From positions 1 through 36,831 of the IMG/VR virus record IMGVR_UViG_3300045970_000329: 36,831 bases of DNA. One strand, written 5' to 3'. The stretch is from a virus. Below the pieces are notes generated by a model, which searched no databases, was not told where the DNA came from, and saw only the letters and a program-made list of their open reading frames with translations. Positions 630 to 36,617 of the stretch are shown here, one piece after another (the stretch's first letter is position 1; each line of letters starts with the position of its first letter). The position numbers and the translations under genes are program-made.

Positions 630-2906
630 GTGTCGCTGACCGATGACGCTCTCGCCCTGCGTGTGCTTGGCTTCCACCCCATCGTCGAGCGCGCCAACAG
701 CAAGATGCCGCTGGCTAGCGGGTGGCAGCGCCTCGTGAACCAGACCGAGGCCGAGCTGCGAGCCGCCTTCGACGCGGCGCCCGCCGGGTCCGGCGTCGGC
801 ACCGTGACCCACGGGTTCATCGTCATCGACGTGGACGTGCGGGAGGGCGTGAACGGCTACGACAGCCTGCGCTCTCTCCCGCCGCTCCCAACCACGCTGG
901 CCAGCGACACCCCCAGCGGCGGGTCGCATCACTTCTACCGCATCCCGCTGGGCGTCGAGGTCCGCAACAGCGTGAGCAAGCTGGGGCCCGGCATTGACGT
1001 GCGCGGCACCGGCGGACAGGTCGTGCTCCCGCCCACCGTCATCGACGGCGTGGCCTACGCCTGGTCGGACGCCCGCTACGGATTGCAGCCGATGGCCGAG
1101 CTGCCGGCCGAGTGGCTGGAGCTGCTGGCCGGCCCGCGGTCCGAGCCGACCTTCACGTTCGGCGCCGCCTCCGGCAAGCGCACCCTGACCCGCCCCGAGG
1201 ACCTGGACATGGACGGCAAGCGGCGCCGGGCCTACATGGACAAGCTGGACGAGCCCAGCGTGCAGGGGGCCGGCGGCAACGCCGTGATGATGAAGGCCGC
1301 CTTCCGCGCCAAGGAGTTCTCCCGCAACCCCGCCGACGCCCTGGAGGAGCTGCTGGTCTGGAACGACCGGCTAGCCACACCGCCCTGGGACGAGCACGAG
1401 CTGGCCCGCGCCATTCTGAACTCCGACGCCGTCCTTGGCGCCGGCCTCGACCGGGACCGCGAGGTGGCCCCGGTCCCCGCCGCTCCCCCGCCCAAGGAGC
1501 TGCCCACCATGCCGCTGGCGTGGGTGGAGCGGATGCAGGCTTACGTCGCCCGCGAGGTGGATGGCTCGTGGGCGCTGCATAACCCGCTGACCGAGGGCGC
1601 GGCCAAGAAGCTGCTGGTGGCTAGCGGGGTCAAGGCCAAGGCGGCTGCCCAGATGCTGGCAGACGGCGGCGTGCCCTACGCCAAGGCCGTCGAGTGCGCG
1701 CCCGGCAGGCCGGCGTCGTTCATCGACGCGCAGGGCCGGCTGGTCCTCAACACCTACGTCCCTCCGGCCATCCAGCCCAAGGCCGGTCCCTTCGACGTGC
1801 TGGACGAGGTGCTGTCCTTCCTGGCCGACGGGGATGACGGTGGCAAGCGGTGGCTGATGAACTGGATGGCCTTTGCCGTCCAGAACCCGGCCCGCCGCCT
1901 CAAGACGGTGCCCGTGCTCTACGGCGCCCAAGGAACCGGCAAGTCGCTGCTGGTGCGGGTCATGTCCGAGCTGATGGGCAGGCAGAACAGCGCCGCCATC
2001 CGCAACGATGACCTAGCCGGCCGGTTCACCTCGCACTTCGTCACCAAGCTGTTTGTGAGCGTGGCCGAGATTCAGTCCGCCGACGTGAGCCACGCGACGG
2101 CCAACCTCAAGTACCTGACCGGCGAGCCTGAGCTGGTGATGGAGGCGAAGGGCGCCAACGCCCTGCCGGTCAAGTCCGCCATCAAGATGATTTGCACGTC
2201 GAACCAGACGTTGCCGGTGCTGGTCGAGGGGCAGGGGGACCAGCGGTGGTCGCTGTTCCGCCAGATGGCCGAGCCCGACACCGGCTACCTGGCGCGCACC
2301 GCGGCGCTGTTCGACCGCGCCACCAACGACTGGTCGGACGCTGGCCAGGCGGAGCTGGCGGGCCTGCTGGCCTTCCTGTTGGCCTACCCGGTGGATGTGG
2401 ACCTGGCCATGACGCCTCACCGCAACGCGGCCCGCAACGCCGCCGCCGAGGCTAGCCGGTCCAGCGTGGAGGCGTTCGTCGAGGCGGTGCGCGGCTCGTC
2501 CATTGATGCGGCGTTCATCGCCAACGTGCCCGAGCACGAGAAGTCCGGACCGGCCTACGTCCACATCCACATCCCCGAGCAGGGCGACGTTATCTCGTCG
2601 GCCGCCCTCCAGGCCGTCTACCGCGCCTTCTGCAAGGCGTCCGGCCTGATGCCCTTGGGCACCCCGAAGCTGGTGGCTGAGCTGGAGCGGTTCGCGCCCG
2701 AATGGCACCGCAAGCGACTGCCCACCAACGTCCTGTCCACCCGGCCCATCGCTTACGCCGGGGTGCCCCGCCAGCTCGACCTCCTGCCGTTCCGTCCGCT
2801 GACCGTCCGTCAGCTCCCGCTCGTCCCGGCTAGCGCGCATCCGGCGCTAGCCGCAGCCGAGTCCACCACGCAGCGCGTGTTCTTCACCGAGGAGGCTGAG
2901 TCGTGA
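630..2906 (+). CDS. Primase-polymerase / SF3-like helicase fusion
   Basis: A 758-residue replication protein. Residues 1-150 form a bifunctional primase-polymerase (Prim-Pol, PF09250-type) domain: metal-binding IDVDV at 66-70, GGSHHFY at 97-103 and GIDVRGTGGQVVLPP at 121-135. Around residues 215-270 is a primase C-terminal-like segment (PPWDEHELARAI). The second half is a D5/DUF5906-type helicase with Walker A GAQGTGKS at 432-439, an acidic KLFVSVAE Walker B-like segment, a sensor-like MICTSNQ and an arginine-finger candidate in DQRWSLFR. It would prime and unwind phage DNA, as such fusions do in phages and plasmids. The GTG start is chosen because GAGGAG lies 6 nt upstream. It overlaps the next gene by GTGA. 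No helicase loader or DNA polymerase is visible in the window. Confidence 0.93.
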   Translation: MSLTDDALALRVLGFHPIVERANSKMPLASGWQRLVNQTEAELRAAFDAAPAGSGVGTVTHGFIVIDVDVREGVNGYDSLRSLPPLPTTLASDTPSGGSHHFYRIPLGVEVRNSVSKLGPGIDVRGTGGQVVLPPTVIDGVAYAWSDARYGLQPMAELPAEWLELLAGPRSEPTFTFGAASGKRTLTRPEDLDMDGKRRRAYMDKLDEPSVQGAGGNAVMMKAAFRAKEFSRNPADALEELLVWNDRLATPPWDEHELARAILNSDAVLGAGLDRDREVAPVPAAPPPKELPTMPLAWVERMQAYVAREVDGSWALHNPLTEGAAKKLLVASGVKAKAAAQMLADGGVPYAKAVECAPGRPASFIDAQGRLVLNTYVPPAIQPKAGPFDVLDEVLSFLADGDDGGKRWLMNWMAFAVQNPARRLKTVPVLYGAQGTGKSLLVRVMSELMGRQNSAAIRNDDLAGRFTSHFVTKLFVSVAEIQSADVSHATANLKYLTGEPELVMEAKGANALPVKSAIKMICTSNQTLPVLVEGQGDQRWSLFRQMAEPDTGYLARTAALFDRATNDWSDAGQAELAGLLAFLLAYPVDVDLAMTPHRNAARNAAAEASRSSVEAFVEAVRGSSIDAAFIANVPEHEKSGPAYVHIHIPEQGDVISSAALQAVYRAFCKASGLMPLGTPKLVAELERFAPEWHRKRLPTNVLSTRPIAYAGVPRQLDLLPFRPLTVRQLPLVPASAHPALAAAESTTQRVFFTEEAES

Positions 2907-3229
2907 AGCTGATTAGAGAGGCGGCGAAGAAGTTGGCGGACTCGAAGGACCCCAAGGAGCGGGCGCTAGCCGAGTACCTGCGGACGCATGACGCCAGGCT
3001 GCGCTCCCTGCTCGCCGACGCCGCGTGGGCCGCCCGGGGGACAGCGGCCGACGACAGGGATGAGCTGGAACAGGTCGCCCTCCTGGCCTGCTGGCAGCTT
3101 TTCCTCACCGACGACCCCGAGGTCGCGCTGCGCGCCGTGGACGCCGCGCTCCACCGCCATGACCGTGCCTTTACGGACGGCGCCCGCCGCCACCTACCCC
3201 TGCTCGACACCCCACCCAAGGAGAACTGA
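2903..3229 (+). CDS. Small helical protein, translationally coupled to primase
   Basis: A 108-residue predicted all-helical protein beginning at GTG 2903 in a GTGA overlap with the primase-helicase stop, so it is probably translated by coupling. It is rich in charged residues and alanine. The segment DDRDELEQVALLACWQLF (residues about 50-67) faintly resembles sigma-70 region 2.1 helices, but nothing else of a sigma factor follows and I do not call it one. Position between primase and nuclease suggests a replication accessory role. Function unknown. Confidence 0.7.
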   Translation: MKLIREAAKKLADSKDPKERALAEYLRTHDARLRSLLADAAWAARGTAADDRDELEQVALLACWQLFLTDDPEVALRAVDAALHRHDRAFTDGARRHLPLLDTPPKEN

Positions 3230-3230
3230 T

Positions 3231-3911: not shown

Positions 3912-3914
3912 ACC

Positions 3915-4895
3915 ATGACGCAGATATCCATTCACTTTGGGGGCGGCCCAACCCACCCGCTGGCCAATGCCAGCGGCCCTCCGTTTCCGCCCCCGCCCAC
4001 CTCCGTCGAGCCCAGCGGCCCGAATGACCCGACCACCCAGGTCGGCCCCTGCATCCCGCTGGGCTCGACGGAGCGCACTATCATCGGCCTCGACACCGGG
4101 GAGCGGGCGGGCAAGACCGTCGCCTGCTACCCGGACGGCTCAACCCGCCACTACGCCGACCCGCTAGCCGCGCTAGCCGAGATGCCGAGCGGCGCCCGCG
4201 TCATTGTGGAGCGGTCGGTCTACGCCTTCCGCTCGCAGTCCAGGGCCGCCTTCATCGCCACGGCCAAGCTGCGCGGGCTCGAACTCTACCCCATCGACCC
4301 GCGACGGACGATGTGCCGCCGCCGGGACTGGCACCCAGGGGTCGAAAAGACGGACGAGCTGGATGCCCTGGTGCTGCGAGATATCGGCATCGAGGGGGTC
4401 ATCCCGCGCTGTCCGCTGTCGGAGCCGCGACTGGCCCCGGACCTGCTGACCAGGGCTCGACAGGTCGGCTACGACCTCGACCACCCCGAGCTGCCGGCCA
4501 GGCTGCGGGAGGCCGTCGAGCGCATCACCAGTCAGCCGGTCCCGCCGTGCGCCGTGCTGGCTGGGGTCGCGCTGCCGGCCGGCAAGCGGTCGGCGGTTAG
4601 GTGGGCGAAGGTCGGCTACCAGCTCGTCACCTTCGCCGTGCTGGCGCTGGAGTCGGGCTCGAAAAAGAAGGCCAAGAACGCCCTCAAGCACCCCGGACTG
4701 GCCCGCTCCAACCTGCGTCACCACCCGCTGCGGACCTGTGAGTCGGTGGGGGAGCGTCGAGAAATCATGCGGTCGATGGACCGCTTTCAGAAGTGGACCT
4801 ACGACCTACTGCATGGGCCCCCTCGCCCCACGGCTCAGTCAACCGTGGCCCACACCTCCCCATGCAGCGGGTCGCTCATCCTGGAGGCCGCATAA
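3915..4895 (+). CDS. RuvC-fold DEDD protein related to IS110 transposase core
   Basis: A 326-residue protein starting 3 nt after the exonuclease stop. Residues 1-52 are proline-rich and probably disordered. Residues 55-165 carry the acidic set expected of an IS110/Piv-type RuvC-fold core: D60 in IIGLDTGER, E99 in VIVERSVY, and D147/D150 in EKTDELDALVL, the last very close to the KTDxxDA signature of IS110 transposases. The C-terminal half (170-326) is basic and does not look like the Tnp20 serine domain that completes those transposases. I see no insertion-sequence ends around it. It may be a phage Holliday-junction or branched-DNA nuclease that shares ancestry with the transposase core. It overlaps the next gene by TAATG. 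Confidence 0.72.
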   Translation: MTQISIHFGGGPTHPLANASGPPFPPPPTSVEPSGPNDPTTQVGPCIPLGSTERTIIGLDTGERAGKTVACYPDGSTRHYADPLAALAEMPSGARVIVERSVYAFRSQSRAAFIATAKLRGLELYPIDPRRTMCRRRDWHPGVEKTDELDALVLRDIGIEGVIPRCPLSEPRLAPDLLTRARQVGYDLDHPELPARLREAVERITSQPVPPCAVLAGVALPAGKRSAVRWAKVGYQLVTFAVLALESGSKKKAKNALKHPGLARSNLRHHPLRTCESVGERREIMRSMDRFQKWTYDLLHGPPRPTAQSTVAHTSPCSGSLILEAA

Positions 4896-5095
4896 TGCCG
4901 ACCTACACCTACCGTTGCGACCGTTGCAAGCGCATACGCGAGGAGGTCCGGCCCATCGCTAGCCGGGCCTACCCCGAGGGCTGCCCGCGCTGCGAGCTGG
5001 GCTACCTCCAGCTCGTCCCCAGCGCCACGGCCGGCAACTTCCCGGGCGCGGACTATTGGCGGACCCGGATGAAGGCGAGGGGGGAGGGGTTCTAG
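4895..5095 (+). CDS. FmdB-like zinc-ribbon protein
   Basis: A 66-residue protein whose N-terminus, MPTYTYRCDRC, is the typical start of the FmdB/CxxC_CxxC regulatory zinc-ribbon family (PF09723-type). The two metal-binding pairs are CDRC and CPRC. ATG 4895 overlaps the previous TAA by one base, with GGAGG at 4883-4887 giving 7-nt spacing. The family's biochemical role is poorly defined. In phages such proteins are thought to bind nucleic acid or modulate transcription. The C-terminal tail (YWRTRMKARGEGF) is basic. Confidence 0.8.
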   Translation: MPTYTYRCDRCKRIREEVRPIASRAYPEGCPRCELGYLQLVPSATAGNFPGADYWRTRMKARGEGF

Positions 5096-5098
5096 CCA

Positions 5099-5308
5099 AT
5101 GGGCCGAAACTACAACGCCGGCGCCAACACCAAGCGCAAGCGGCTGGCCAGCAGCGGGCGCAACGTCGAGGTCCAGGGCGGAGTCATCGTCGAGCACGCC
5201 GGCTGTCTCATGGTCCGGTGCCACGCCTGCGGCGCGCTGGCCCCGGTCAATCGCTGGTGGGTCCACGGCACGAGCGAGGACCCGCACATCCAGGGCCACG
5301 TCGGCTAG
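5099..5308 (+). CDS. Small basic protein with a CxxC pair
   Basis: A 69-residue protein starting at ATG 5099, with a GGAGG-type site in the end of the preceding gene. The N-terminal 25 residues are basic (NTKRKRLASSGR). One metal-binding-like pair, CHACG, occurs near residue 41, and a terminal histidine-containing stretch could add ligands. It is the last gene before the terminator at 5334. Its TAG stop lies inside one of the GCTAGC palindromes (5304-5309), with a second copy 8 bp on. Function unknown. Confidence 0.65.
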   Translation: MGRNYNAGANTKRKRLASSGRNVEVQGGVIVEHAGCLMVRCHACGALAPVNRWWVHGTSEDPHIQGHVG

Positions 5309-5333
5309 CCGGCTAGCAAGCCAGTCTCACAAC

Positions 5334-5366
5334 GAAGCCCCGGGCATACCCCGGGGCTTCTTCGTT
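5334..5366 (+). terminator. Rho-independent terminator of the first early operon
   Basis: Stem GAAGCCCCGGG (5334-5344) pairs with CCCGGGGCTTC (5350-5360) around a short CATA-containing loop and is followed by TTCGTTTG. The perfect 11-bp stem and moderate T-rich tail fit a rightward intrinsic terminator. It separates the replication block from the next genes. The tail is not a clean U-run, so some read-through is possible. Confidence 0.8.
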
Positions 5367-5394
5367 TGTGTGGCGGGATGGGGAGGTAATTGTT

Positions 5395-5739: not shown

Positions 5740-5755
5740 TTCTCACGATAGGGCA

Positions 5756-5784: not shown

Positions 5785-5827
5785 GTACCCCCGAAAGAGT
5801 CACCCACCCCCCAAAGGACTACACCCC

Positions 5828-6511: not shown

Positions 6512-6810
6512 AGCGCGCCGAGCTGGTCGAGCTGCAAGCCGGCCTCCAGTCGGTGGCCGTGGCCGCCCTCCAGATGGCCCAGGCCGTGGCCGCCGCCCTG
6601 GCTAGCGGCGATGACCCGGCTAGCTCCGAGGTCCGCACGTCCATGCCCGAGGTGGTGGTTGGTGCGCCCGACGTGGAGGTGGAGCTGCCGCCGGCCCTCC
6701 AGCTCAAGGTCGCCGTCTGCCAGAAGTGCCTGCGGCGCTTCTCCTACTTCGGCGCCGTCGCCCCCTTCGACTGCGGGGACTGCCCCGGCGCGCCGCTGGG
6801 GGTCGCATGA
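6508..6810 (+). CDS. Small zinc-finger protein
   Basis: A 100-residue protein starting at GTG 6508 (GTGA overlap with the sigma-like gene). Residues 1-33 form an alanine-rich helix (VKRAELVELQAGLQSV and on). The C-terminus carries four cysteines, CQKC and CGDC, about 17 residues apart, a probable zinc ribbon or treble clef. Such small zinc proteins in phage operons usually bind nucleic acid or host proteins, but no specific family is recognised. It ends in an ATGA overlap with the next gene, so the sigma-like gene and at least three followers appear translationally coupled. Confidence 0.7.
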   Translation: MKRAELVELQAGLQSVAVAALQMAQAVAAALASGDDPASSEVRTSMPEVVVGAPDVEVELPPALQLKVAVCQKCLRRFSYFGAVAPFDCGDCPGAPLGVA

Positions 6811-6974: not shown

Positions 6975-7207
6975 CGCGCTCCGAGGCCCTAGCCACCCTG
7001 CTCCTCGTGCTGTTGCTCATGGTTGGGGCCGGTGCCGTGGGTTTCGTCGTCGGAAACCGCGAGCCGCCCCCCGTCGCGCCCGCCCAGGCTCACGTCGTTC
7101 GGATGCTCGACATAGTCATCCGCGACTCCAACACCACCAACCGCCGCCAGCGTTTCGAGTGCCGTCCCACCGATGCACCCACCACCACCACGAAGGAGCC
7201 TAAGTGA
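6971..7207 (+). CDS. Single-pass membrane protein
   Basis: A 78-residue protein from GTG 6971 (GTGA overlap with the preceding gene). Residues 6-27 (ALATLLLVLLLMVGAGAVGF) form one hydrophobic transmembrane segment after a short MTRSE leader. A proline-rich linker, a short amphipathic stretch and a threonine-rich tail follow. With one arginine before the segment, the topology is not obvious. It stands in the early operon, away from the lysis genes, so a role at the host membrane (for example superinfection exclusion) is possible but unproven. GTGA overlap with the next gene. Confidence 0.65.
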   Translation: MTRSEALATLLLVLLLMVGAGAVGFVVGNREPPPVAPAQAHVVRMLDIVIRDSNTTNRRQRFECRPTDAPTTTTKEPK

Positions 7208-7746
7208 GCCTGCCTGACCGCGACTGCCGACGCTGCACCCATTTCCCCGGCGCTCTGTTCGAGCCCTGTCTCGTCTCCAAGCACCACGTCGCCACGATTT
7301 CCGGCCCCTGCACGATGTTCAAGGCCAAGGCCAAGAAGCGCAAGGCCCGGCCCCAGGTGCAGGTCATCATCGACGAGGTGCTGGCCAGCGCGGTGCTGCC
7401 CACCAGCGCCGCCGACCGCAAGAACATCCCGATGGTCCGGGGCCTGCTCGACTACTTCCCCGCCGCGCTCGCCGCCGTCGCCGCCGTCTCCAAGAAGGGC
7501 AATGACCAGCACAACGCTGGCCAGCCCATGCACCACGCCCGGGGGAAGTCGACGGACCACGCCGACTGCATCGTGCGGCACCTCGTCGAGCGCGGCACCG
7601 TCGACACGGACGGCGAGCGGCACAGCGCCAAGGTGGCGTGGCGCGCGCTGGCGCTGTTGCAGGAGGAGCTGGAGCGCGAGGCCGGGGCGCCGCTGCCCCG
7701 TGGCGCAAAGGTCGAGGCCGTGCCGGCAGGGACGGTGACGCCGTGA
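7204..7746 (+). CDS. dATP/dGTP diphosphohydrolase-family protein
   Basis: A 180-residue protein from GTG 7204 (GTGA overlap). Residues 75-158 closely match the phage family named dATP/dGTP diphosphohydrolase (PF18909 type): LLDYFPAALAAVAAVSKKGN, QHNAGQPMHHARGKSTDHAD (102-121) and the helix SAKVAWRALALLQEELE. Conserved His, Asp and Glu would bind metal. The family is thought to hydrolyse purine dNTPs to the monophosphate and pyrophosphate, altering nucleotide pools. The N-terminal 40 residues carry four cysteines (C8, C11, C22, C36), an added metal-binding-like module. A basic linker, KAKAKKRKARP, joins the parts. It lies three genes from a nucleoside deoxyribosyltransferase-like protein, suggesting a small nucleotide-metabolism set. 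Confidence 0.82.
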   Translation: MSLPDRDCRRCTHFPGALFEPCLVSKHHVATISGPCTMFKAKAKKRKARPQVQVIIDEVLASAVLPTSAADRKNIPMVRGLLDYFPAALAAVAAVSKKGNDQHNAGQPMHHARGKSTDHADCIVRHLVERGTVDTDGERHSAKVAWRALALLQEELEREAGAPLPRGAKVEAVPAGTVTP

Positions 7747-7931
7747 TCTTCCTGCTGCTGTCCGGCGTCACTCTCGCCTGCCTGGCCTGCTGGGTCGACG
7801 GCCACCGGGCCGGCCTCGCCGACGCCCAGCTTGAGCTGGACGAGCTGGCCGCCAAGGTCCGGAGCAACCGCGAGTCCATTTCCGCCCTCTCCGACGCCCT
7901 GCTCCGCACGGGCGCGGCCGGGAGGGCGTGA
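7743..7931 (+). CDS. Membrane-anchored coiled-coil miniprotein
   Basis: A 62-residue protein from GTG 7743 (GTGA overlap with the preceding gene). Residues 2-18 (IFLLLSGVTLACLACW) form one transmembrane helix starting right at the N-terminus. Residues 25-60 are a predicted helix with heptad-like leucines (LADAQLELDELAAKVRSN). This N-in anchor plus short coiled coil is also seen in phage spanins and superinfection proteins, but here it lies in the nucleotide-metabolism operon. Function unknown. Confidence 0.6.
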   Translation: MIFLLLSGVTLACLACWVDGHRAGLADAQLELDELAAKVRSNRESISALSDALLRTGAAGRA

Positions 7932-8332
7932 TGGCTCTCGTCTACGTCGCCGGCAAGTGGTCCCGCCGCGGAGAGGTCAAGGCCGTCATGGCGCAGCTCA
8001 GGGAGCGTGGGGACATCATCACCCACGACTGGACGGACGAGGACTCGATGGACGGGGCTAGCCAGCTAGCCAGGGACCAGCACTTCGCCCGCTGCGCCGA
8101 GGCCGACATGGTCGGGGTGGTCAACGCCGACTGGTTCATCCTGCTCCACGACCCCACCTGTCGCGGCGCCTTCGTGGAGCTGGGCGCCGCCCTGGCCCAC
8201 GGCGTCAAGGTGGTGGTGGTCGGCGGGCAGGCCGGCGGCGCTGACCCGGCGCTGTCATGCCCCATTTTCTACTGGCTGCGCGAGGTGCAGCACGTCCAGA
8301 CGGTGGAGCAGGCGCTGGCCCTGACGGGCTAG
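7931..8332 (+). CDS. Nucleoside 2-deoxyribosyltransferase-like protein
   Basis: A 133-residue Rossmann-like protein. The start is ATG 7931, or the GTG directly before it at 7928. Features of the nucleoside 2-deoxyribosyltransferase/DUF4406 superfamily are the opening strand LVYVAGKWSRRGEV, the strand-turn DIITHDWT (28-35), an acidic helix, ADMVGVVNADWFILL (58-72), and RGAFVELGAALAHG (78-91) with the conserved glutamate E83. Family members move deoxyribose between bases or cleave nucleosides. In phages they are linked with salvage, and sometimes with modified bases or defence evasion. The exact substrate cannot be read from sequence. Its TAG stop lies in a GCTAGC palindrome. Confidence 0.75.
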   Translation: MALVYVAGKWSRRGEVKAVMAQLRERGDIITHDWTDEDSMDGASQLARDQHFARCAEADMVGVVNADWFILLHDPTCRGAFVELGAALAHGVKVVVVGGQAGGADPALSCPIFYWLREVQHVQTVEQALALTG

Positions 8333-8336
8333 CTGG

Positions 8337-8800: not shown

Positions 8801-8961
8801 GCCAGCAAAACGCGCCTCTGCTGTTCCTGTCCGCGCTGTTCGTCGGGTCCTGGTTGGTCATGTGCCTGGAGTGGGGATGGCTCGTGGGCAGCCTGGTTTC
8901 GCTAGCCGCCATCGCTGTCCTGGTGATGGCCAGCATGGACCTGACTCAGAGAGGTTCGTGA
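8797..8961 (+). CDS. Two-helix membrane miniprotein
   Basis: A 54-residue protein starting at GTG 8797 in a GTGA overlap. Translation gives two hydrophobic helices, about residues 6-23 (PLLFLSALFVGSWLVMC) and 27-46 (WGWLVGSLVSLAAIAVLVMA), joined by a very short turn, then MDLTQRGS. The size and hairpin topology recall class II holins or small superinfection-exclusion proteins. Distance from the endolysin argues against a holin. Its end overlaps the 3' end of the opposing gene by 16 bp. Confidence 0.6.
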   Translation: MSQQNAPLLFLSALFVGSWLVMCLEWGWLVGSLVSLAAIAVLVMASMDLTQRGS

Positions 8962-9434
8962 CGGCACCGCTCGCACGGAACTGAGGGGCGAGAGTCGTTG
9001 GCAGCCTCACCCACCAGCCACCCAACGGCCTCGGCCTCCTCCGCGAAGTAGCGGAGGAAGTCGGGGCCTCTGCTTTGGCACAGTCCATTCAGCAGCTCGA
9101 TGGTGCTGGGGTGAGCCGGACCTAGCGCGGCCACCCGGACGATCTGGGACGCAAACGGGGAGCAGGCGTCCTCGGCGTGGCTAGCCAGCAGGGGGTCGGG
9201 AGGGTCCTCTGACATCCGCATTAGGATGGACACCCGGCCGTCTCCATCCTGTACGACGGCGCGGGCCATCCGTTCGTAGACCAGCGCCTGGGGTAGATGG
9301 GAGGTGAAGTCAGCGCAAAGGATGGGGTGTCCTTGGGGAAGCGTCCAGGAGACGGACTCATGGGCTGTCGTCATGCTTAGGTGGACCTCGGTGGCCGGCG
9401 GGTGGCCACCGTCAGCTAACACGGGCCTCGCCAT
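8946..9434 (-). CDS. Hypothetical protein, leftward, convergent with the early block
   Basis: A frame of up to 162 residues, reading left from ATG 9434 to TGA 8946-8948. No Shine-Dalgarno sequence precedes ATG 9434. An alternative ATG at 9374 gives a 142-residue protein starting MTTAHESVSWTLPQGH, with GAGG 13 nt upstream. The content has normal protein character: HLPQALVYERMARAVVQ, an acidic middle, and a C-terminal helix ending with two cysteines (CERCRHEPL). No family is recognised. It is the only leftward gene upstream of the integrase block and its 3' end overlaps the two-helix membrane gene. Single genes placed like this are sometimes lysogeny or immunity functions; that is inference. 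Confidence 0.55.
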   Translation of the reverse strand: MARPVLADGGHPPATEVHLSMTTAHESVSWTLPQGHPILCADFTSHLPQALVYERMARAVVQDGDGRVSILMRMSEDPPDPLLASHAEDACSPFASQIVRVAALGPAHPSTIELLNGLCQSRGPDFLRYFAEEAEAVGWLVGEAANDSRPSVPCERCRHEPL

Positions 9435-9483: not shown

Positions 9484-9705
9484 ATGACCAAGGCACACAT
9501 GACCCCGGAACTGAGGGCCAAGCTGTCCGCCAATCTGGAGAAGGCTCGCGCCGCCAAGAGAAAGAGGGCGAAGGCCAAGCGGCCCGCGCCCTCTCTCGTG
9601 ACCCAGCTCCACGCCCAGGCTGGCCGGCTGCTAGCCGACGCCCGCAAGCTGCGGGCCAGAGCCCTGGCCCTGCGCCGCGCCGCTCGGCTCGTCGGCCGGG
9701 GCTGA
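9484..9705 (+). CDS. Small very basic protein
   Basis: A 73-residue protein from ATG 9484, with a weak AGG upstream. Residues 1-38 are Lys/Arg/Ala-rich (MTPELRAKLSANLEKARAAK, then RKRAKAKR); residues 40-73 continue as a basic helix. The charge suggests DNA or RNA binding. Its last 75 bp overlap the 3' end of the integrase gene on the other strand, an unusual tail-to-tail overlap in which both frames look plausible. The integrase end is low-complexity, so the integrase may have been extended over this gene. Confidence 0.55.
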   Translation: MTKAHMTPELRAKLSANLEKARAAKRKRAKAKRPAPSLVTQLHAQAGRLLADARKLRARALALRRAARLVGRG

Positions 9706-10938: not shown

Positions 10939-10945
10939 GGTCAAC

Positions 10946-10974
10946 ACTCTACCCGCTCGGGGGGCCGTGGTCAA
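10946..10974 (-). promoter_or_regulatory. Leftward promoter for the integrase operon
   Basis: On the minus strand TTGACC (top-strand 10969-10974) is followed by a 17-nt spacer and TAGAGT (10946-10951), four of six matches to each consensus or better. The start codon of the small zinc protein (10938) is only 7 bp beyond the -10, so the transcript would be leaderless or nearly so, unless another start is used. The -35 coincides with one TGGTCAAC repeat and the other repeats flank it, so a protein binding them would control integrase expression. Confidence 0.6.
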
Positions 10975-10986
10975 CAGGTGGTCAAC

Positions 10987-11098
10987 GGCCGTAAATGAAA
11001 AGCAGGAAAACCAATAAGGAGAGGTGCAGGAGCGGCTTATCTGGCACGACTGGAAACCTTGGGGCTCCCCCAACAGTCCTGCGGCCCTCCCCGCAACC
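10987..11098. other. Non-coding A-rich gap; possible attP region
   Basis: Between the two groups of TGGTCAAC repeats lies about 110 bp with no convincing gene. It begins A-rich (AAATGAAAAGCAGG) and contains a nested inverted repeat: ACTG 11049-11052 with CAGT 11074-11077, enclosing TTGGGG 11059-11064 with CCCCAA 11068-11073. Repeats flanking a central core next to an integrase is the layout of many phage attachment sites. No host sequence is available to identify a core, so this stays a suggestion. Confidence 0.3.
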
Positions 11099-11136: not shown

Positions 11137-11164
11137 GGTCGTGGTCAACGGCTGGTCAACGGGG

Positions 11165-25852: not shown

Positions 25853-27891
25853 GCGCCTCCGACCTCCACTTCCCGGGAAGCCCCCAGCACCGTGACGGGC
25901 AGGGGGTCCGACTGCCGCAGGGCGGCCCGGCCGCCCCGGTTCCAGGAGCTGGACACCGACACATCCAGGCGCTCGTTGTAGAGCCCGAGCGTGGCGGCCG
26001 TGAATCCAAGGGGGGCGCGCCAGGGGGTCAGGTCGGACAGCGACTCGCCGGAGTAGAGCCCGGCCGTGCGGTCCACCTCCCAGGTGACGCGGGAGACGTT
26101 GCGAACCTCGCTGGGGCGGTCCCGCTGGTCGAGGTCCAGGTCCAGCAGCTCGATGTCGGACTGGTAGGACAAGCCCACGCAGACATCGGAGGCCGCGACC
26201 GGGAGGGTGATGACCCCGCCGTTCACGGTTAGGGTGCCGCGGACGATACCGTCGGCCAGCGCCACAACCGACCGTCCCTCCAGGTGCGCCAGTCCCGTGA
26301 CGATGGTGGTGGCAGAGGCGGAGTGCTGCCAGATCGAGGCGTCCAGAAAGCAGCCCAGCTTGATGTCCGTAACCTGTCGGCTAGCCGACCGCTCGATCTG
26401 CCGGACGCCATTCCGCAGGACGATGGCGTACACCACGTCCTCCGAACCCTCGGGGATGGAGCAGACCGACTCGAACGTCCCCTGGGTGTCGTGCTTGGCC
26501 CAGGCGGCCACGTTCATTTCGCGCGAGTAGGTCATGCTCACCAGCGAGCCGTCGTCGCGGACGCCCCACATGATGGGGTAGGGAAGGCGCTGGAAGGTCC
26601 AGTCCACGATGGTCCGGCCGGCGCTGGCCAGCAGATGGTTGGCGACCAGGGACACCTCTCCGCCATCCCAGCCGCCGCGCTGGCCGTCGAAAGCCAGCTC
26701 GCGCACCGTGGACTGCTGGGATTGGAGGTACAGCACCACGTTGTTGACCACCAGCGGGCGCAGCCACGAGCATCCATTGAAGCTGGCGGGCACGAGGTTG
26801 ATGTTGGTGGGCGACATGGGCCGGTCGCCGGCGTCCGCCGCGAACTCGGTGTTGGCCGTGAGCACCAGGAGGTGGCGCATCGACACCAGGGCGCGGACCT
26901 CCTCGTACTGCCGGCTGCTCACCGTGAAGTCGATGGCGTCGTCATCCTTCTGCGGCAACGAGTAGTCGAAGTTCTTGGGGGCGCCCACGCGCGAGGCCAC
27001 CACGCGCTGTGGGTAGCTGGGCTGGTTGGCCATCACCAGACGCTGCTGGTGGTAGACGACCACGGCCGGGTTCTCGCTGCTGGCGAACGGGTCGCGTGCG
27101 CTGGGCGGGCGGTCGGAGTAATTGGGGACCTGGCCCTCATCTTGGAACCGGACGCCGTTCGACTTGCCGACGTAGCCATAGACCCCGTAGCGCCCCCGGT
27201 ACCAGCAGTAGGAGGTGGCTCCCGCGACGCCGTCGGTGAACAGGGTGACGGCGCGGTCGGGCGCCACGACGACGGCGGCGGACGACAGCACCGGGGACGG
27301 AAGGCTCTCCTCGTCATCCTTCACAGCCGTCACCACCCAATCCCACTCCTTGGTGACGTGGGTTGGGTCGGCAACCGTCTGGGGGGTGTTGAAGAAGTAC
27401 GGCGAGGCGGTCGGGGCGCTGATGCTGCGAACGACTGCGAAGCTGGCCAGCGTCCAACTCGACTGCGACACGCGACGCAGCTCGCGGGGGGCGTGCGATG
27501 GGTGCGTGATGGTCAGCGTGTCGCCGCTTTGCACGAACTGGAGCCTGGAGAGCTGGGCCTCGGCGTACGGCGTGACCACATCGACGGGGGCCAGCAGGGC
27601 ATCCAGCACGAACCCGCCGCCCTGGATGACCCGGACGTAGAGGTGCCCGAACTCCAGGACGTAGGACTGAGTGGTGGAGAAGGTGAACGGAATGAGCCGC
27701 GACTTCGTGGCGCTGCTCTTGGTGGCGCCGACGTACTGGAATCCGGGGCGGTTCATGGCCGCGCCGGTGGGGGTGGCGAAGAAGTTTCGGAGCGTGCGGA
27801 CCGCGGCAGCGCGCGACGGGATGTCCGTGCGCGACTGGAGGTTCTGGGCAACCTCTCCGCCGTGAAAGCTGGACTGCCGGATGACGGCCAC
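25849..27891 (-). CDS. Tail tubular protein B (T7 gp12-like)
   Basis: A 680-residue tail protein starting at GTG 27891 with GAGGAG in the end of the gp11-like gene. The N-terminus carries the family signature: IRQSSFHGGEVAQNLQSRTD followed by RTLRNFFATPTGAAMNRPGF with the conserved NF..TP.G....PG, then SYVLEFGHLYVRVIQGG. The rest is beta-rich (propeller-like in T7), with short repeats such as VVYHQQRLVMAN. It forms the tail nozzle below the gp11-like ring. The sequence is intact and its length is within the range seen in T7-like phages (about 650-800 residues). Confidence 0.92.
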   Translation of the reverse strand: MAVIRQSSFHGGEVAQNLQSRTDIPSRAAAVRTLRNFFATPTGAAMNRPGFQYVGATKSSATKSRLIPFTFSTTQSYVLEFGHLYVRVIQGGGFVLDALLAPVDVVTPYAEAQLSRLQFVQSGDTLTITHPSHAPRELRRVSQSSWTLASFAVVRSISAPTASPYFFNTPQTVADPTHVTKEWDWVVTAVKDDEESLPSPVLSSAAVVVAPDRAVTLFTDGVAGATSYCWYRGRYGVYGYVGKSNGVRFQDEGQVPNYSDRPPSARDPFASSENPAVVVYHQQRLVMANQPSYPQRVVASRVGAPKNFDYSLPQKDDDAIDFTVSSRQYEEVRALVSMRHLLVLTANTEFAADAGDRPMSPTNINLVPASFNGCSWLRPLVVNNVVLYLQSQQSTVRELAFDGQRGGWDGGEVSLVANHLLASAGRTIVDWTFQRLPYPIMWGVRDDGSLVSMTYSREMNVAAWAKHDTQGTFESVCSIPEGSEDVVYAIVLRNGVRQIERSASRQVTDIKLGCFLDASIWQHSASATTIVTGLAHLEGRSVVALADGIVRGTLTVNGGVITLPVAASDVCVGLSYQSDIELLDLDLDQRDRPSEVRNVSRVTWEVDRTAGLYSGESLSDLTPWRAPLGFTAATLGLYNERLDVSVSSSWNRGGRAALRQSDPLPVTVLGASREVEVGGA

Positions 27892-27893
27892 GG

Positions 27894-28778
27894 CTACCAG
27901 CTCCTCGTGGTGATGATCTCGCTGTCCGGCTGGCGGTCGGGCACCTGCTCGTTGAGATCGCTGGCCAGCGCCTGGTTGAAGGACAGGGTCGCGGCCTGGA
28001 ATAGCGTGGTGGCCAGCTCGGGCTTGATGGCCATGGGCATAGCTAGCCGGCTAGCCAGCTCGAAGATGAGGGCGTCCGCAAAGGCGTTGGACCAGAGCGA
28101 CGGGTCGGTCACGCGGGCGACGTAGGCCAGAGAGGCGGGCGAGAGGTCGCAACAGAGGATGCGCCCCGTTGCGGTGTCGTTCATTTCGATGGCCCACGGC
28201 GTCGGGACGGACTTGCCGGTCGCGCGGTAGCCGGTGTCCAGGTCGATGGAGCGCAGGAAGTCGCTGGGCAGGGCGTAGCAGTAGCCCCAGCCGTACCGGA
28301 CATGGTCCGTCAGCCGCAGCAGCTCGGCGCGCCGGGTGGCCCAGCTCCAATTGTGCCGAGCCATCAGCCGGTCACGGGTGCGGGCGAAGAACAGCACGCC
28401 CAGCTTCTCGGACTTGGTGACGGGGGAGGCGAGGCTGGCGATGGTGGTTGTCTCGCCCAGCGCGCCCAGCGCCATCTGCACGATGTCCAGCTCGGTCGTG
28501 GTGAGCGAGGTGCTGGTCTGCCCGACGGTGAAGGCCGAGCCCACCGCGGACTGCGACAGAGCGTCGGTCGCGGTGATTCGGTACCAGCTCGTCGAGACTC
28601 CGACTCCATGGACCAGGAAGAACAGCCCGGACGTGGAGTCGTACACGGTCACGTCGGTCAGGGAGTGCGTAACCGTTCCGACCGTGCTCCACGCTCCGGT
28701 CGAGGTGGAGGCTGTCTCGACGAGATAGCTGACAATGTCAGCGTCGGTGGATGGGAGCCAGGTAACCTTGTTGGACAT
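27894..28778 (-). CDS. Tail tubular protein A (T7 gp11-like) with N-terminal Fn3-like domain
   Basis: A 294-residue protein. Residues 95-294 are gp11-like: TELDIVQMALGALGETTTIA (about 93-112), FFARTRDRLMARHNWSWATR, then YCYALPSDFLRSIDLDTGYR, and a helical end ALIFELASRLAMPMAIK. This adaptor ring joins portal to nozzle. Residues 1-88 are an extra beta-sandwich resembling fibronectin type III (VTWLPSTDADIVSYLVETAS, SLTDVTVYDSTSGLFFLVHG, SWYRITATDALSQS). T7 gp11 lacks such a domain, so this is a fusion that may reach the outside of the tail. It starts at ATG 28778 after AGAGAGG. Confidence 0.87.
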   Translation of the reverse strand: MSNKVTWLPSTDADIVSYLVETASTSTGAWSTVGTVTHSLTDVTVYDSTSGLFFLVHGVGVSTSWYRITATDALSQSAVGSAFTVGQTSTSLTTTELDIVQMALGALGETTTIASLASPVTKSEKLGVLFFARTRDRLMARHNWSWATRRAELLRLTDHVRYGWGYCYALPSDFLRSIDLDTGYRATGKSVPTPWAIEMNDTATGRILCCDLSPASLAYVARVTDPSLWSNAFADALIFELASRLAMPMAIKPELATTLFQAATLSFNQALASDLNEQVPDRQPDSEIITTRSW

Positions 28779-28790: not shown

Positions 28791-29978
28791 CTAGGGGACG
28801 GGGGCGGCGTAGCCGCCTGGAGCTGGGCTGGTCGAGGGGGCGGCGTGGACCCCGGGCACCAGGGGGGCGTGTCGCTGGGCCTGGCCCGCTGCGGGCCCGG
28901 GGGCGGCGCGGGCGACATGGCCCTCATTGTGCGGGGGCGATGGGTTGCTGGAGCGGGCGCCGGCGGCGGGAGGCGGGGGAAGGATGACCCCGACGGCCCA
29001 GCCCATCATCGGGGAGTAGATGAGCACCAGGTCGGAGGCCGACGCTATCCAGGAGGCCAGAATGGAGCCTGTCTCGGCGAACCGCCCGGAGTCCAAACTA
29101 ACAGACGCAACCGAGGCCAGTACGGTGGGCGCCTCCGCTAGCTGGAGTGAGTCTGAGGCTGACAAACCCCACGCGGCGACGACGGAGGCAGAGTCAACCC
29201 CCTGGCGGGCGTCATCGGCGGACGAGGCCCACGAGGCGACAATAGAAGAGGGCTCCGCAAGGGAGGCTGCGTTCGACCCAGAGGCCGACCATGAGGCTGT
29301 GACCGCTCCGCTCTCGGAGTAGGAGCTACCGCCACCGCCCCCGGAGGCGGGATTGAGGGCGAACAGAGTCCACTCAAACAGACCGGGGCTTGCGCTGTCG
29401 CCCCCCGACGTGACTGTGGCCCGGGTGGAGGTGATGCTAGCTGCCGACGCCGAGGTCGCATACCAAACGCCCTGTGCAAAGGTGTATCCGTTTGTTGCAG
29501 AGTAGTCAGATACAGATATTGCGGTATTGGTGGTGAAGGACGGAGCAGCCCCAATGGTTGCATAAGCCCGACCGTCTGCGTCCTGCGCTTGGAGGGCGAA
29601 TAGGGTGGCCACAACCACCGACCCGGCCGGAGCTAAAACCGTCAGCGACCCTGCGGTGGTCGAGTAGGTCGACTGCACCTCGGAAGCAATCGAGGCTATC
29701 GGGGTGGTGGTGTCCACGCCCGAAAATCGAAACACCTGGGACCTGCCAAATTGGCCGTAGACCGATGATGTGGAATCGCTACCCGTGGCGATGCGCCAAA
29801 AGACGGTACAGATGCCGGAGGGCGTGCTCGAATGGGCGGCGCTCCATCCCGAAAACCACGAGGCCGCTGTGTCTCCGTAGGCAAGCATCACCAGAAGGTC
29901 GCCCACCGTACCGGCTGGCACCCCGGGGTCCGTCCATGCGTCGCCGGGTATACCCGCGCCGACGTAGGCGATGGCCAC
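28791..29978 (-). CDS. Virion surface/fibre protein with 20-residue tandem repeats
   Basis: A 395-residue protein starting at GTG 29978. Residues 1-210 look like a beta-sandwich domain (TVGDLLVMLAYGDTAASWFS, APAGSVVVATLFALQAQD, GLFEWTLFALNP), related in look to carbohydrate- or decoration-type phage modules. After GGGGGSS (213-219), residues 221-316 are five repeats of exactly 20 residues: position 10 of each unit is W230, W250, W270, V290 and W310 (SGAVTASWSAS, SSIVASWASS, ASVVAAWGLS, APTVLASVAS, TGSILASWIAS). Residues 330-395 are Pro/Ala-rich and disordered. The gene sits between the head and tail genes. Codons of the repeat region are less GC-biased than the neighbours. Function unknown; probably a fibre or decoration. 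Confidence 0.7.
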   Translation of the reverse strand: MAIAYVGAGIPGDAWTDPGVPAGTVGDLLVMLAYGDTAASWFSGWSAAHSSTPSGICTVFWRIATGSDSTSSVYGQFGRSQVFRFSGVDTTTPIASIASEVQSTYSTTAGSLTVLAPAGSVVVATLFALQAQDADGRAYATIGAAPSFTTNTAISVSDYSATNGYTFAQGVWYATSASAASITSTRATVTSGGDSASPGLFEWTLFALNPASGGGGGSSYSESGAVTASWSASGSNAASLAEPSSIVASWASSADDARQGVDSASVVAAWGLSASDSLQLAEAPTVLASVASVSLDSGRFAETGSILASWIASASDLVLIYSPMMGWAVGVILPPPPAAGARSSNPSPPHNEGHVARAAPGPAAGQAQRHAPLVPGVHAAPSTSPAPGGYAAPVP

Positions 29979-29988
29979 GGCAGCTCCG

Positions 29989-30387
29989 CTAGCTAATGCT
30001 GATGGCGGTGATGTTCTCCGACATGGTGTCGGCGACCGTCAGCGTGCGCGGCGTGGAGAGCGCGCCCCAGGAAATGATCTTGCCCGCCGTTCCGCTGGCC
30101 GCCGTGCAGAGGAACCAATGCGTGGCCCCCGTGATGACGACGCCCGTGCCCCAAGTCACGGCCGCGCCCATCGAAAGCACGGCGCCCGTGATGGTGGCGT
30201 TGGCGCTCGTCCAGTTCTTGCGAGCCGCGCCAACCGCGGCCTCCGAGGCAGCCACGCTGGCCAGCGTTGAGGCCGCCGTGGGTGCGGCGTTGACCAGCCC
30301 GATGTAGAGCTGGTTCGCGGGGATGGTCGCGCCCTTGGCGATGGCGTCGAGGATGTAGCCGCTGCCTTCGGTGGTGATGTTGGCCAT
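29989..30387 (-). CDS. Small structural protein (head-fibre/tail-fibre-like)
   Basis: A 132-residue protein. The frame is open further, but ATG 30387 has AGGGAG 7 nt upstream and begins MANITTEGSGYILDAIAKGA, so it is preferred. NQLYIGLVNAAPTAAST, then GAARKNWTSANATITGAVLS and SWGALSTPRTLTVADTM, match a widespread small beta-rich phage structural family found near capsid and tail genes. Its role (head fibre or connector decoration) is not settled. It is the first gene after the hairpin at 30424-30480. Its TAG stop lies inside a GCTAGC palindrome. Confidence 0.72.
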   Translation of the reverse strand: MANITTEGSGYILDAIAKGATIPANQLYIGLVNAAPTAASTLASVAASEAAVGAARKNWTSANATITGAVLSMGAAVTWGTGVVITGATHWFLCTAASGTAGKIISWGALSTPRTLTVADTMSENITAISIS

Positions 30388-30905: not shown

Positions 30906-30939
30906 GTGGTGGTTTCCTTTCGGGGGTCGCTAGCCGGGG

Positions 30940-31962: not shown

Positions 31963-32026
31963 GCAGGAAACTCCTTGGGTGGTGAAACGGTGCTGGGGCT
32001 AGCGAAATGCTGGCCCCGGTGTGCTG

Positions 32027-32689: not shown

Positions 32690-33048
32690 TGGGTGTTGCT
32701 CTCCTCGGCGGCGACCTCTGCCGCTTCACGGGTGGCCTGGCGGGCGCGTGCCTCGGCTAGCTGCTCCTGGAGCGCCTGGACGTAGAGGTCGGGGGCGTGC
32801 TGCTGGCACCGGACCAGGAGGCCCAGCCCGACGGAGCGGCGGCCTTCGTTGTAGGAGGTGGAGTGGGGCTCGCCGACGAAGCTGGGGCCGAAGGTTCCGG
32901 CCTTCTCGTCGAGCAGGTCCCACACGAAGCGTCGCCCCTCGGGCGTGGACAACACGGCCACGAGGTCGGAGCGGACGCGGTCGGCCAGCCGCTCGTCCTC
33001 GGCGCGGAGCATGGCCTGGGCCCGCTCGCTGGCCAGGACCTCGCTCAC
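32686..33048 (-). CDS. Bbp19-like phage protein
   Basis: A 120-residue helical protein from GTG 33048 (GTGA overlap with the portal). GRRFVWDLLDEKAGTFGPSF (38-57), EPHSTSYNEGRRSVGLGLLV (60-79) and APDLYVQALQEQLAE follow the Bbp19-like domain found between portal and scaffold in BPP-1-like phages. Its function is not established; it may help head assembly. The C-terminal tail is charged and helical. Overlaps on both sides suggest fixed stoichiometry with portal and scaffold. Confidence 0.78.
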   Translation of the reverse strand: MSEVLASERAQAMLRAEDERLADRVRSDLVAVLSTPEGRRFVWDLLDEKAGTFGPSFVGEPHSTSYNEGRRSVGLGLLVRCQQHAPDLYVQALQEQLAEARARQATREAAEVAAEESNTQ

Positions 33049-34781
33049 ATGGCCCCCGTTCCGATGCCTGGCCCGCCGCCCTGGGATGCCAGCAGCCGGT
33101 TGAGGGCGCTGGTGCCGTTCACGTCGGTCTTGGACAGCAGCTCGGCCGACTTGGCCATGTCGGGCCCGGCCTGGGCAGCCTGCTGCGCCTGCTGCGCGTC
33201 GGCCACGGCCTTCGCCTTGGCCTGCCGGACGGCGTCCACTTCCTCCTGCGAGAACAGCAGGGACGGGTGGGTGCCGAGCATATCGGCGTACTGCGCGACC
33301 AGCTCGTCGGCGTTCAGCTTGTCGAGGATGTCCGGCTTGGCAGCGGCCAGGCTGCCCACGAAGCTGGCCAGGCGCTCGACCGCGGAGACGCCTAGGAGCC
33401 GCTGCGCCGCCGCCATGATCGAGACGTACTCGACCCGGATGGACTGGCCCTCCAGCTCTGCCGGGGGCTTGGGCAGCAGGCCGCGACGCAGGCAGATGAA
33501 GAACACCCGCTCCAGCAACTTGTCCAGCAGCTCGTCGTGCAGGCGCTCCAGCACGGGTCCGAGCGTCAGCAGCTTCTCCTCGTGGCGCTCCGCGACCTCG
33601 CGCGCCGTGGCGCGCTGGTTGCGGTCATCCATCGTGAGGGCCAGCCAGAGGTCGACGTAGAACGTCCGGTTGATGCGGTCCTCGTGCTGCCGGACGGCCT
33701 GGTCCACGGCGCCGATGGCGGCGGGGTGGATGTTCAGCACGGGCTCGAATCCCTGCGAGCCGGCCACGCGGTCGAGGTACGTCACGTCGCCCGGGAGCAG
33801 CGAGACGCGGCCAGCCTTGAGGGCGGACGGGGCGACCATCGGCGGATTGCTGATGCGGTCCACCACCATCGCCTTGCGCTTCTCCAGGAGCTGGAGAGCC
33901 TTGGCGTCGCCCAGGGCGTCGAACCCGGGGCCGGTGCCGTAGGTGTCGGTCCCGGTGACGTTCCAGCGCGGGGCCATGACCGGGAACTCGTGGTAGCCGG
34001 ACACCCGCAGGAACTGGCTGTCGGTCGAGTCGCTTCGCAGCTCGAACCAGACCGAGCGCCAGGCCATGTGCTGCGAGCCCAGCCGGCCGGGAATGAACCC
34101 GGGGTTCGGCTCGATGACGTGCATCACCTCGACCACGGCGTCGTACTGGTGTCGCTTCCAGAGGTCGCGGGTCTGACGGGAGCAGGCGTCGAGGCCAAAC
34201 TGCTCGACCGTCTGCGCGACGGTCATCGTGACCTCGCGCATCATCGTGTCCACCTGGCCGCGGGCCGAGGTGGCCAGGCAGAAGGAGCCGAGGGGCAGGA
34301 CGTAGGACCGGATGACTTCCTTGGCGTCCTCCTCCACGACCATGGCCGCGGTGGAGAACACGCCCAGGTCCCCGAATACGCTGGCCAGCCCGTTGTAGAC
34401 GTTGGACCGGATGAGGACTTCCTTGAGGATGTCCTCCACATCGACCAGCCAGCGGCGAACGGATGCGCTGGCCCGGCCGCCGTAGTTCGGAACGGCTAGC
34501 CGGAACCAGGGCCGAGCCGGGCTCACCAGCCCCGAGACGAACCCTGCCGCCAGGGTGCGGGCGGCCTGGGTCGGGGTGTTGTTGATCAGCTTCTCATTGG
34601 TCGCCGGCTTGTTGCGCTGGCTGGTCTGGTCGCGGAAGCGCCGAGGCAGGATGTAGTCAGCCTGCTGCTTCCAGACGGCGACCCAGGGGCTGCGCTCCTG
34701 CTTGAGCGTGGCCCAGCGGGTCAGGATGCGCTGCTTCTCGGGCTCGTTCGGCACCGGGTTGGCGGCGGAGCTGGTGATCAT
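33045..34781 (-). CDS. Portal (head-tail connector) protein
   Basis: A 578-residue portal of the podovirus head-tail connector family (PF12236 type). Evidence: QRILTRWATLKQERSPWVAV and YILPRRF at the start, PTQAARTLAAGFVSGLVSPA, RPWFRLAV, the VWFELRSDSTDSQFLRVSGY stretch, TYGTGPGFDALGDAKALQLL, and DRNQRATAREVAERHEEKLL. Twelve copies form the DNA channel at one capsid corner. The C-terminus is Gln/Ala-rich and then glycine-rich. Length is within the usual 500-600 range. It lies two genes after the large terminase, coupled to both neighbours by 4-bp overlaps. Confidence 0.93.
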   Translation of the reverse strand: MITSSAANPVPNEPEKQRILTRWATLKQERSPWVAVWKQQADYILPRRFRDQTSQRNKPATNEKLINNTPTQAARTLAAGFVSGLVSPARPWFRLAVPNYGGRASASVRRWLVDVEDILKEVLIRSNVYNGLASVFGDLGVFSTAAMVVEEDAKEVIRSYVLPLGSFCLATSARGQVDTMMREVTMTVAQTVEQFGLDACSRQTRDLWKRHQYDAVVEVMHVIEPNPGFIPGRLGSQHMAWRSVWFELRSDSTDSQFLRVSGYHEFPVMAPRWNVTGTDTYGTGPGFDALGDAKALQLLEKRKAMVVDRISNPPMVAPSALKAGRVSLLPGDVTYLDRVAGSQGFEPVLNIHPAAIGAVDQAVRQHEDRINRTFYVDLWLALTMDDRNQRATAREVAERHEEKLLTLGPVLERLHDELLDKLLERVFFICLRRGLLPKPPAELEGQSIRVEYVSIMAAAQRLLGVSAVERLASFVGSLAAAKPDILDKLNADELVAQYADMLGTHPSLLFSQEEVDAVRQAKAKAVADAQQAQQAAQAGPDMAKSAELLSKTDVNGTSALNRLLASQGGGPGIGTGAM

Positions 34782-35281: not shown

Positions 35282-35282
35282 G

Positions 35283-36617
35283 TCAGGACTCCATGTGGAA
35301 CGGGTCGTACTCAGCGCCGACGCATTGGTGGGACCGCGGGCGGTAGACGCCCAGCGGGTCCTGGCTCTCGCGCGGCGGGAGCGGGGAATAGAAGGTGAGG
35401 GCCAGCGCGTCGCCGCAATCAGGGGAGGCCATGCCCCGCTTCTTCATGTCGGCCTTGGACTCCAGGACGATGCGGGACTGCGAGTCGTACTTGAACGTCG
35501 GCGCGGCCAGGTCCAGCTTGAGCTGCTGGTCGTCGGGGATGGACCCCAGGCGCAGCCACTCCGCCATTTCGCCCCACAGCCTGGCCCGCGTGTTGGCGTA
35601 CTTCTGGACGTGGGAGCGGGTGCCGAAGTTCACGGCGATGGGGGCGCGCCCGAGCTGGCGCATCCGGTCCACGACTCCGGCACCCAAGCCGCCCTCGTCC
35701 ACGAAGATGGCGTCGGCGTTGTGCTCATCGGCGCAGGCCAGGGCGGCGGCGGCTACTTCCATGGTGTCGTAGCCGCGCAGCTTCTGGAGTGCGAAGGAGA
35801 CGGGCCCTTGGCGCAGGATGAGCGCCGTGGTGTCGTCGCCGAATCGAGCCGGGTCGACCCCAAGGGCCAGGCCGGCGTGGACGTACTCGCCCTCGGCGTA
35901 GCTGCGGACGGCGGCGGCCTCGATGCGGTCGGACGGGATGAGGATGTCCGCCCCGCCGGCTGAGAACACGCACATCATTTCGGCCTGGAACTGCGCCTCG
36001 CTCATTTCGTTGCGAGCGGCGGCTACCTCGGACGGCTCGATGGCCGCGGTGTCCTCGACGGTGAGGAGGGTCGCGTACCACTCTGGGTCACGGAGAGCCT
36101 TGTAATACAGCTCCGAGAACAGGTTGATGCCCTTGGCGGTGCCGATGAAGATGGCCCATCCGATGCGGTCGGCTAGCGCGGGGCGGATGATCTCGCCCCA
36201 GACGCTGGGCTCGATGTCCGCAACCTCGTCGACCACGATGCCGTCGAACCCAAGGCCGCGCAGCGCGGTGGCGTTGTCGGCGCCGAACAGCCGGATGGTC
36301 GCGCCGTTCGGAAACTCGACCTTGAGTTCGGACTCGCGGACCACGGTGCCGGGAACGTTGATGCAGACCTTCTTGAGAATGTCCCAGGCAACTGCCTTGG
36401 CCTGCGCGTAGTAGGGGGCGACGTAGGCGAAGCGGCCGTCCGGCGTGTTGAGGGCGCCCTTGAAGCCGCGCTTCGGATTGCCCAGCACCAGCTCGTGGAT
36501 GGAGAACACCGTCTTGCCGGCCCGGCGGTGGAGCACCAGGACCGAGAACCGCTTGCGTGCCTCATGTACCAGGCGCTGCCAGCGGCGCGGCTTGTAGCCG
36601 AGGTTGACGGCTGCCAC
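35283..36617 (-). CDS. Terminase large subunit (TerL)
   Basis: A 444-residue packaging motor. ATPase: Walker A HRRAGKT at 30-36, Walker B IVVDE with D130-E131, coupling motif GTAKG at 159-163. Nuclease (RNase H-like): D255 in GVDPARFGDD, D307 in FVDEGG and D400/D403 in DCGDALAL. It cuts phage DNA and pumps it through the portal. The start is GTG 36617, overlapping the resolvase stop (TAGTG). No small terminase is visible in the window; it should lie beyond the right edge or be replaced by another gene. Confidence 0.95.
   Translation of the reverse strand: MAAVNLGYKPRRWQRLVHEARKRFSVLVLHRRAGKTVFSIHELVLGNPKRGFKGALNTPDGRFAYVAPYYAQAKAVAWDILKKVCINVPGTVVRESELKVEFPNGATIRLFGADNATALRGLGFDGIVVDEVADIEPSVWGEIIRPALADRIGWAIFIGTAKGINLFSELYYKALRDPEWYATLLTVEDTAAIEPSEVAAARNEMSEAQFQAEMMCVFSAGGADILIPSDRIEAAAVRSYAEGEYVHAGLALGVDPARFGDDTTALILRQGPVSFALQKLRGYDTMEVAAAALACADEHNADAIFVDEGGLGAGVVDRMRQLGRAPIAVNFGTRSHVQKYANTRARLWGEMAEWLRLGSIPDDQQLKLDLAAPTFKYDSQSRIVLESKADMKKRGMASPDCGDALALTFYSPLPPRESQDPLGVYRPRSHQCVGAEYDPFHMES

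Follow-up and report, generated by a model that had tools for sequence, protein, structure and literature searches.

The highly iterated palindrome HIP1 (GCGATCGC) was described in 1995, and its role has been debated since. Chi, DNA uptake sequences, and FtsK-orienting polar sequences (KOPS) are also short motifs with genome-wide over-representation. The present analysis concerns the palindrome GCTAGC in a 36,831-nt stretch of viral DNA (IMG/VR record IMGVR_UViG_3300045970_000329, positions 1 to 36,831; the window), which, judging from its genes, is probably most of a temperate podovirus of the epsilon15 type with a high GC content (69.1%; a preliminary description of the same DNA had put it at ~67%). 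Chi, the uptake sequences, and KOPS are unlike GCTAGC in that they lack perfect palindromic symmetry and in most cases show strand bias or greater length. In cyanobacteria, highly iterated palindromes (HIPs) reach 500-2500 per Mb, alternate HIPs are found together with a cognate methyltransferase, and in the model of Elhai mismatch repair directed by methylated G-mC makes HIPs until there is roughly one in every 1,000 bases (PMC4390886). GCTAGC has GC at both ends, a requirement of that model for alternate HIPs, and it resembles HIP1 and the alternate HIPs in its strong excess, its density near one per kb, its presence in coding and non-coding DNA, and its absence from some close relatives. 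It was not found as a HIP in the main text of PMC4390886. No paper on an unusual frequency of the palindrome GCTAGC, or on HIPs as a general phage feature, was found in the literature collection searched, and methylation of GCTAGC has been reported in Bacillus megaterium S2 (PMC8112702). GCTAGC is read here, with a probability of about 60%, as a HIP-type host signature, that is, as an alternate HIP of the host of this phage and most probably a site that a host methyltransferase modifies.

The window holds 57 copies of GCTAGC (positions 714-36177), exactly the number counted by hand in the preliminary description, at a mean interval of ~650 bases and a density of 1,548 per Mb. Base composition predicts 12.5 copies (12-13 had been given), an order-2 Markov model 13.5, and an order-3 model 22.9. 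An order-4 model, the check proposed earlier, expects 53.5 and is unusable as a null because GCTAGC sites dominate their own 5-mer counts. The strict null was therefore a shuffle of synonymous codons in which proteins and codon counts were held (300 shuffles of 30.5 kb of coding sequence). Coding DNA has 41 copies against 5.9 +/- 2.2 in the shuffles, the highest of which had 13 (z 15.6), so that the palindrome is about sevenfold above what the proteins and their codon use predict. It ranks first in over-representation among all 6-mers. The excess belongs to the full 6-mer: its one-letter neighbors are near expectation, the exceptions being an excess of GCCAGC (140 vs 92) and a shortage of GCGAGC (35 vs 53). 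GCTAGC makes up 57 of the 79 CTAG sites (72%; ~70% had been estimated), and the remaining NCTAGN palindromes number two for CCTAGG and zero for ACTAGT and TCTAGA. Two outcomes had been named beforehand as speaking against a highly iterated palindrome, an unremarkable count under a Markov or codon-shuffled model and similar counts of the other NCTAGN palindromes; neither was seen.

The sites are found in coding DNA (1.44 per kb) and in unassigned DNA (2.04 per kb), and their flanking sequences are diverse. Within genes the palindrome is read as GCT-AGC 25 times and as CTA-GCN 16 times, and it also supplies TAG stops, so the earlier statement that every usable frame is occupied holds. About half of the CTA codons (16 of 33) lie in GCTAGC. 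Of the four gene ends that had been listed as TAG stops within the palindrome, those at 8332, 9631, and 29989 are confirmed, and the stop at 5308 ends a 69-aa open reading frame (ORF) starting at 5099. Ala-Ser dipeptides are over-frequent in the window (123 vs 97 expected) and not in the related contig G001 described below (96 vs 98), a surplus that is no more than suggestive of amino-acid changes having been the price of some sites.

Three close contigs were found in IMG/VR. One of them, G003, represents the same phage, with 99.98% identity across 12 kb, and adds 4.4 kb with eight more GCTAGC. The second, G002 (16.9 kb, 69-75% nucleotide identity to the window), has 25 copies, so that both lineages exceed several hundred sites per Mb. 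The third, G001 (48.2 kb), is 67-81% identical at the nucleotide level in the packaging, portal, and capsid genes and has none. About 140 further loci from related phages and prophages showed no comparable excess, and no new lineage turned up when close relatives were sought with the tail protein and the primase as well. GACGTC, AGGCCT, CTGCAG, and GCATGC are missing from both the window and G002 and present in G001; by these shared absences, the window and G002 seem to come from phages whose host group differs from that of G001. The density of GCTAGC is maintained between the window and G002, but the positions are not: of the 24 window sites that could be aligned, just 5 are conserved, and this conservation is not clearly above that of other Ala-Ser or Leu-Ala codon pairs (5 of 20 vs 22 of 128). 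A scan of viral sequences with the pattern GCTAGCCN{1,2}GCTAGCC returned at least 119 stretches, mostly with weak enrichment, and among the matches listed only L222 was comparable; L222 was rejected as a further GCTAGC-rich virus, as its matches cluster within a short repeat.

Phages carrying a HIP have a precedent in cyanophages. HIP1 occurs per 50 kb 33 times in Nostoc phage N1, 27 times in Nostoc phage A1, 27 times in Planktothrix phage PaV-LD, and 20 times in Nodularia phage 2AV2, and CGATCG is the top over-represented palindrome in each of these. Of the six cyanophages examined, the other two have almost no HIP1 (Anabaena A-4L 0, Microcystis LMM01 1). Phages can thus bear the HIP of their host, and a host group with HIP1 can also have phages without it. 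Where N1 and A1 (L282 and L285) align, they are 71.5% identical, and 10 of the 23 aligned N1 sites are common to A1. HIP1 is evenly spaced in both (coefficient of variation [CV] of the gaps 0.47 in N1 and 0.50 in A1; p below 0.001). The likeness to the window lies in one top palindrome with other palindromes absent, in even spacing (N1 and A1), and in absence from some phages; the differences are that HIP1 is an 8-mer and GCTAGC a 6-mer and that the cyanophages are low in GC. The window contains no HIP1 and no CGATCG and so does not carry HIP1 proper. The earlier comparison with HIP1 is nevertheless well supported, by the enrichment of one palindrome with others absent, the split between sister phages, the turnover at constant density, and the similar behavior of HIP1 in cyanophages.

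Under the host-signature reading, the phage would replicate as a lysogen and would share the DNA signature of its host, in the way that HIP1 is carried by some cyanophages. In that host, GCTAGC would be an alternate HIP targeted by a putative methyltransferase. New sites would appear wherever few substitutions suffice and would be retained up to a ceiling of about one per kilobase, and methylated G-mC steps could direct the mismatch repair that keeps them (Elhai model, PMC4390886). The GC ends, the density, and the even spacing described below fit this model. We infer a host genome with the same excess, methylation of GCTAGC in it, and repair, in place of some other reader, as the process that maintains the sites. 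The N6_N4_Mtase Pfam model had no match in the phages, so that the putative methyltransferase would be that of the host; C5 methyltransferases were not searched for with a model of their own. This gap weighs against the host-signature reading, as do the following results. In 1,234 genomes, made up of five phylum samples (including Pseudomonadota, Planctomycetota, and Acidobacteriota) and 31 genomes with related terminase or prophage genes, and without specific sampling of Myxococcota, Gemmatimonadota, Actinomycetota, or cyanobacteria, GCTAGC reached at most ~394 per Mb and no host was found, and the excess is known here from phages only. Pairs of sites 8-18 bp apart, present in the window, had no counterpart among the HIP1 sites of the cyanophages, and they also set the window apart from HIP1 and the alternate HIPs of cyanobacteria. 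The evenness of the spacing is weakened when the 4.4-kb extension is added (CV 0.66, p 0.0006), and in G002 (21 merged sites) it is not significant. A host call from the terminase profile scan of genomes was rejected, the nearest prophage genes being just 48% identical and spread over several phyla.

With close pairs merged, the gaps between GCTAGC sites in the window have a CV of 0.58, and none of 5,000 random placements was as even when sites were restricted to unassigned DNA and to positions that synonymous changes could convert. This CV is the lowest among 162 6-mers of similar frequency, and the largest gap is 1,739 bp. The merging of close pairs was decided post hoc; any merge distance from 20 to 100 bp gave the same outcome. 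Nine pairs are separated by 8-18 bp, compared with about 2-3 by chance (p 0.0002-0.003 for the whole window and p 0.007 on convertible coding positions alone): 8 bp apart at 5304-5317, 8057-8070, and 28042-28055; 9 bp apart at 4163-4177, 18354-18368, and 24721-24735; 17 bp apart at 2829-2851 and 15916-15938; and 18 bp apart at 6601-6624. The other sites, like the pairs without an assigned strand, are at 714-719, 1370-1375, 1620-1625, 2451-2456, 2965-2970, 4958-4963, 8328-8333 (with a TAG stop), 8901-8906, 9180-9185, 9630-9635 (with the TAG stop of the integrase), 10367-10372, 11292-11297, 12064-12069, 13182-13187, 13713-13718, 14104-14109, 14460-14465, 14629-14634, 15024-15029, 15360-15365, 15588-15593, 16579-16584, 17550-17555, 18819-18824, 19767-19772, 20667-20672, 21309-21314, 21636-21641, 23099-23104, 25725-25730, 26380-26385, 29137-29142, 29436-29441, 29988-29993 (with a TAG stop), 30929-30934, 31998-32003, 32756-32761, 34495-34500, and 36172-36177.

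A tentative extension, to which we give about one chance in four, is that GCTAGC is a spacing-dependent functional mark, of which a copy is needed no farther than ~1-1.7 kb from any position on the phage chromosome. The reader of such a mark might be a repair or replication-control system that depends on methylation and makes use of the 8-18 bp pairs too. If so, the even spacing of HIPs would be evidence for a selected function and not for a mutational by-product. Even spacing, common to the window and to HIP1 in two Nostoc phages, could separate these two views, and a HIP-type palindrome of different sequence, together with one lineage that has none, offers a small and tractable genome for testing the link to a methyltransferase and the role of selection.

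Among the alternatives, the one that survives best, and which we still consider unlikely, is that GCTAGC serves the phage itself. A protein of the phage or of the host would recognize the palindrome, the spacing of the sites would be selected in phage DNA only, and the host would not be enriched; candidate readers would act in packaging, segregation, nucleoid or replication control, or SeqA-like binding of pairs. The even spacing and the excess of pairs beyond nulls limited to synonymously convertible positions agree with this, as does the failure of any of the 1,234 genomes to reach such a density. The absence of the palindrome from the 48 kb of G001 makes a need of the core phage machinery for it unlikely, and HIP1 is a precedent for a host signature with equally even spacing. 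If the host genome turns out to be ordinary, this explanation would be favored. Of the causes listed in the preliminary description, a host signature linked to methylation or repair remains the best, and a packaging or segregation role of the phage is unlikely because G001, with structural genes 67-81% identical, lacks the site.

Slightly less probable again is a host signature without methylation, in which GCTAGC is made by biased repair or replication in the host, perhaps through a Vsr-like enzyme working in the opposite direction. The excess in every usable frame and region and the turnover of positions are what such a bias would give. It should, however, drain its source sequences, yet the transition neighbor GCCAGC is raised and, among the other neighbors, only GCGAGC is lowered; the even spacing is also left unexplained.

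Fifteen other palindromes have no copy in the coding DNA of the window, where the codon shuffle expects 5-26 (CAGCTG 26, GAGCTC 25, GACGTC 21, CTGCAG 18, CGATCG 14, and ten more). Non-palindromic restriction-type sites (type-IIS-like) are also at zero in coding DNA, namely CTGAAG (23 expected), GAGACC (19), ACTGGG (14), and GAAGAC (13). This near-complete loss of palindromes resembles heavy restriction pressure by the host group. It could be supposed from these zeros that almost every palindrome is avoided in the host group and that GCTAGC is simply unrestricted, which is very unlikely: release from restriction predicts a count at expectation and not seven times the codon-shuffle value, and GGCGCC, which is unrestricted, sits at expectation in coding DNA (51 vs 50.4). 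The missing palindromes of the window and its sisters are like the restriction-site avoidance known in phages and prokaryotes (PMC4687349), which is mainly depletion and gives no reason to expect a single palindrome to be strongly enriched in a phage. Explanations by codon or dipeptide usage, by repeats, or by an artefact of assembly were rejected with near certainty, since despite the rare-codon pairs involved and the Ala-Ser surplus, the shuffle that preserves amino acids and codon counts yields far too few sites, the flanks are diverse, and the independent contig G003 has the same sites.

Depletion of palindromes and type-IIS-like sites was seen in the window and in L040-L043, and the absent set varies among the sister phages; GCCGGC and CCGCGG are missing in G002 only. 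The absent set of each phage may be a fingerprint of the restriction systems of its host. TGGCCA, too, exceeds its expectation (51 vs 26 in the coding shuffles), and does so equally in G001 (39 vs 21), which makes it a group-wide trait unrelated to the split in GCTAGC.

The gene set of the window includes a terminase, portal, capsid, tail, primase, and tyrosine integrase. Homologues of epsilon15-like portal and tail proteins are present (PHROGs 332, 376, and 394). The portal protein of the epsilon15 type (33045-34781, minus strand; PHROG 332, E 6.8e-153) is ~44% identical to that of epsilon15 over 87%. The large subunit of the terminase (35283-36617, minus strand) has 76% amino acid identity to that of G001, the phage without GCTAGC. 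The tyrosine-type phage integrase is encoded at 9631-10725 on the minus strand (PHROG 1, E 9.4e-21; Pfam Phage_integrase, E 7.5e-11); no partial tRNA that could mark an att site turned up when one was sought. GGTCAAC repeats (gtggtcaac, ctggtcaac) adjoin the integrase at 10940-10995 and 11140-11165 and occur again in the extension (L044, 2770-2800); they are possible integrase arm sites or operators. The extension also has tandem-like cgtgtccg repeats (cgtgtccgctcgtgtccgctcgtgtccgg and similar) in intergenic DNA (L044, 2225-2410). A 2,641-aa protein (14955-22880, minus strand) with an LPD22 domain near its N-terminus is probably an internal virion or ejection protein, and its counterpart in G001 is an ORF of 4,108 aa. 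Two adjacent genes on the plus strand encode a dATP/dGTP diphosphohydrolase-like protein (7204-7746) and a nucleoside deoxyribosyltransferase-like protein (7928-8332; under the Pfam cut-off), possibly a nucleotide-modifying pair.

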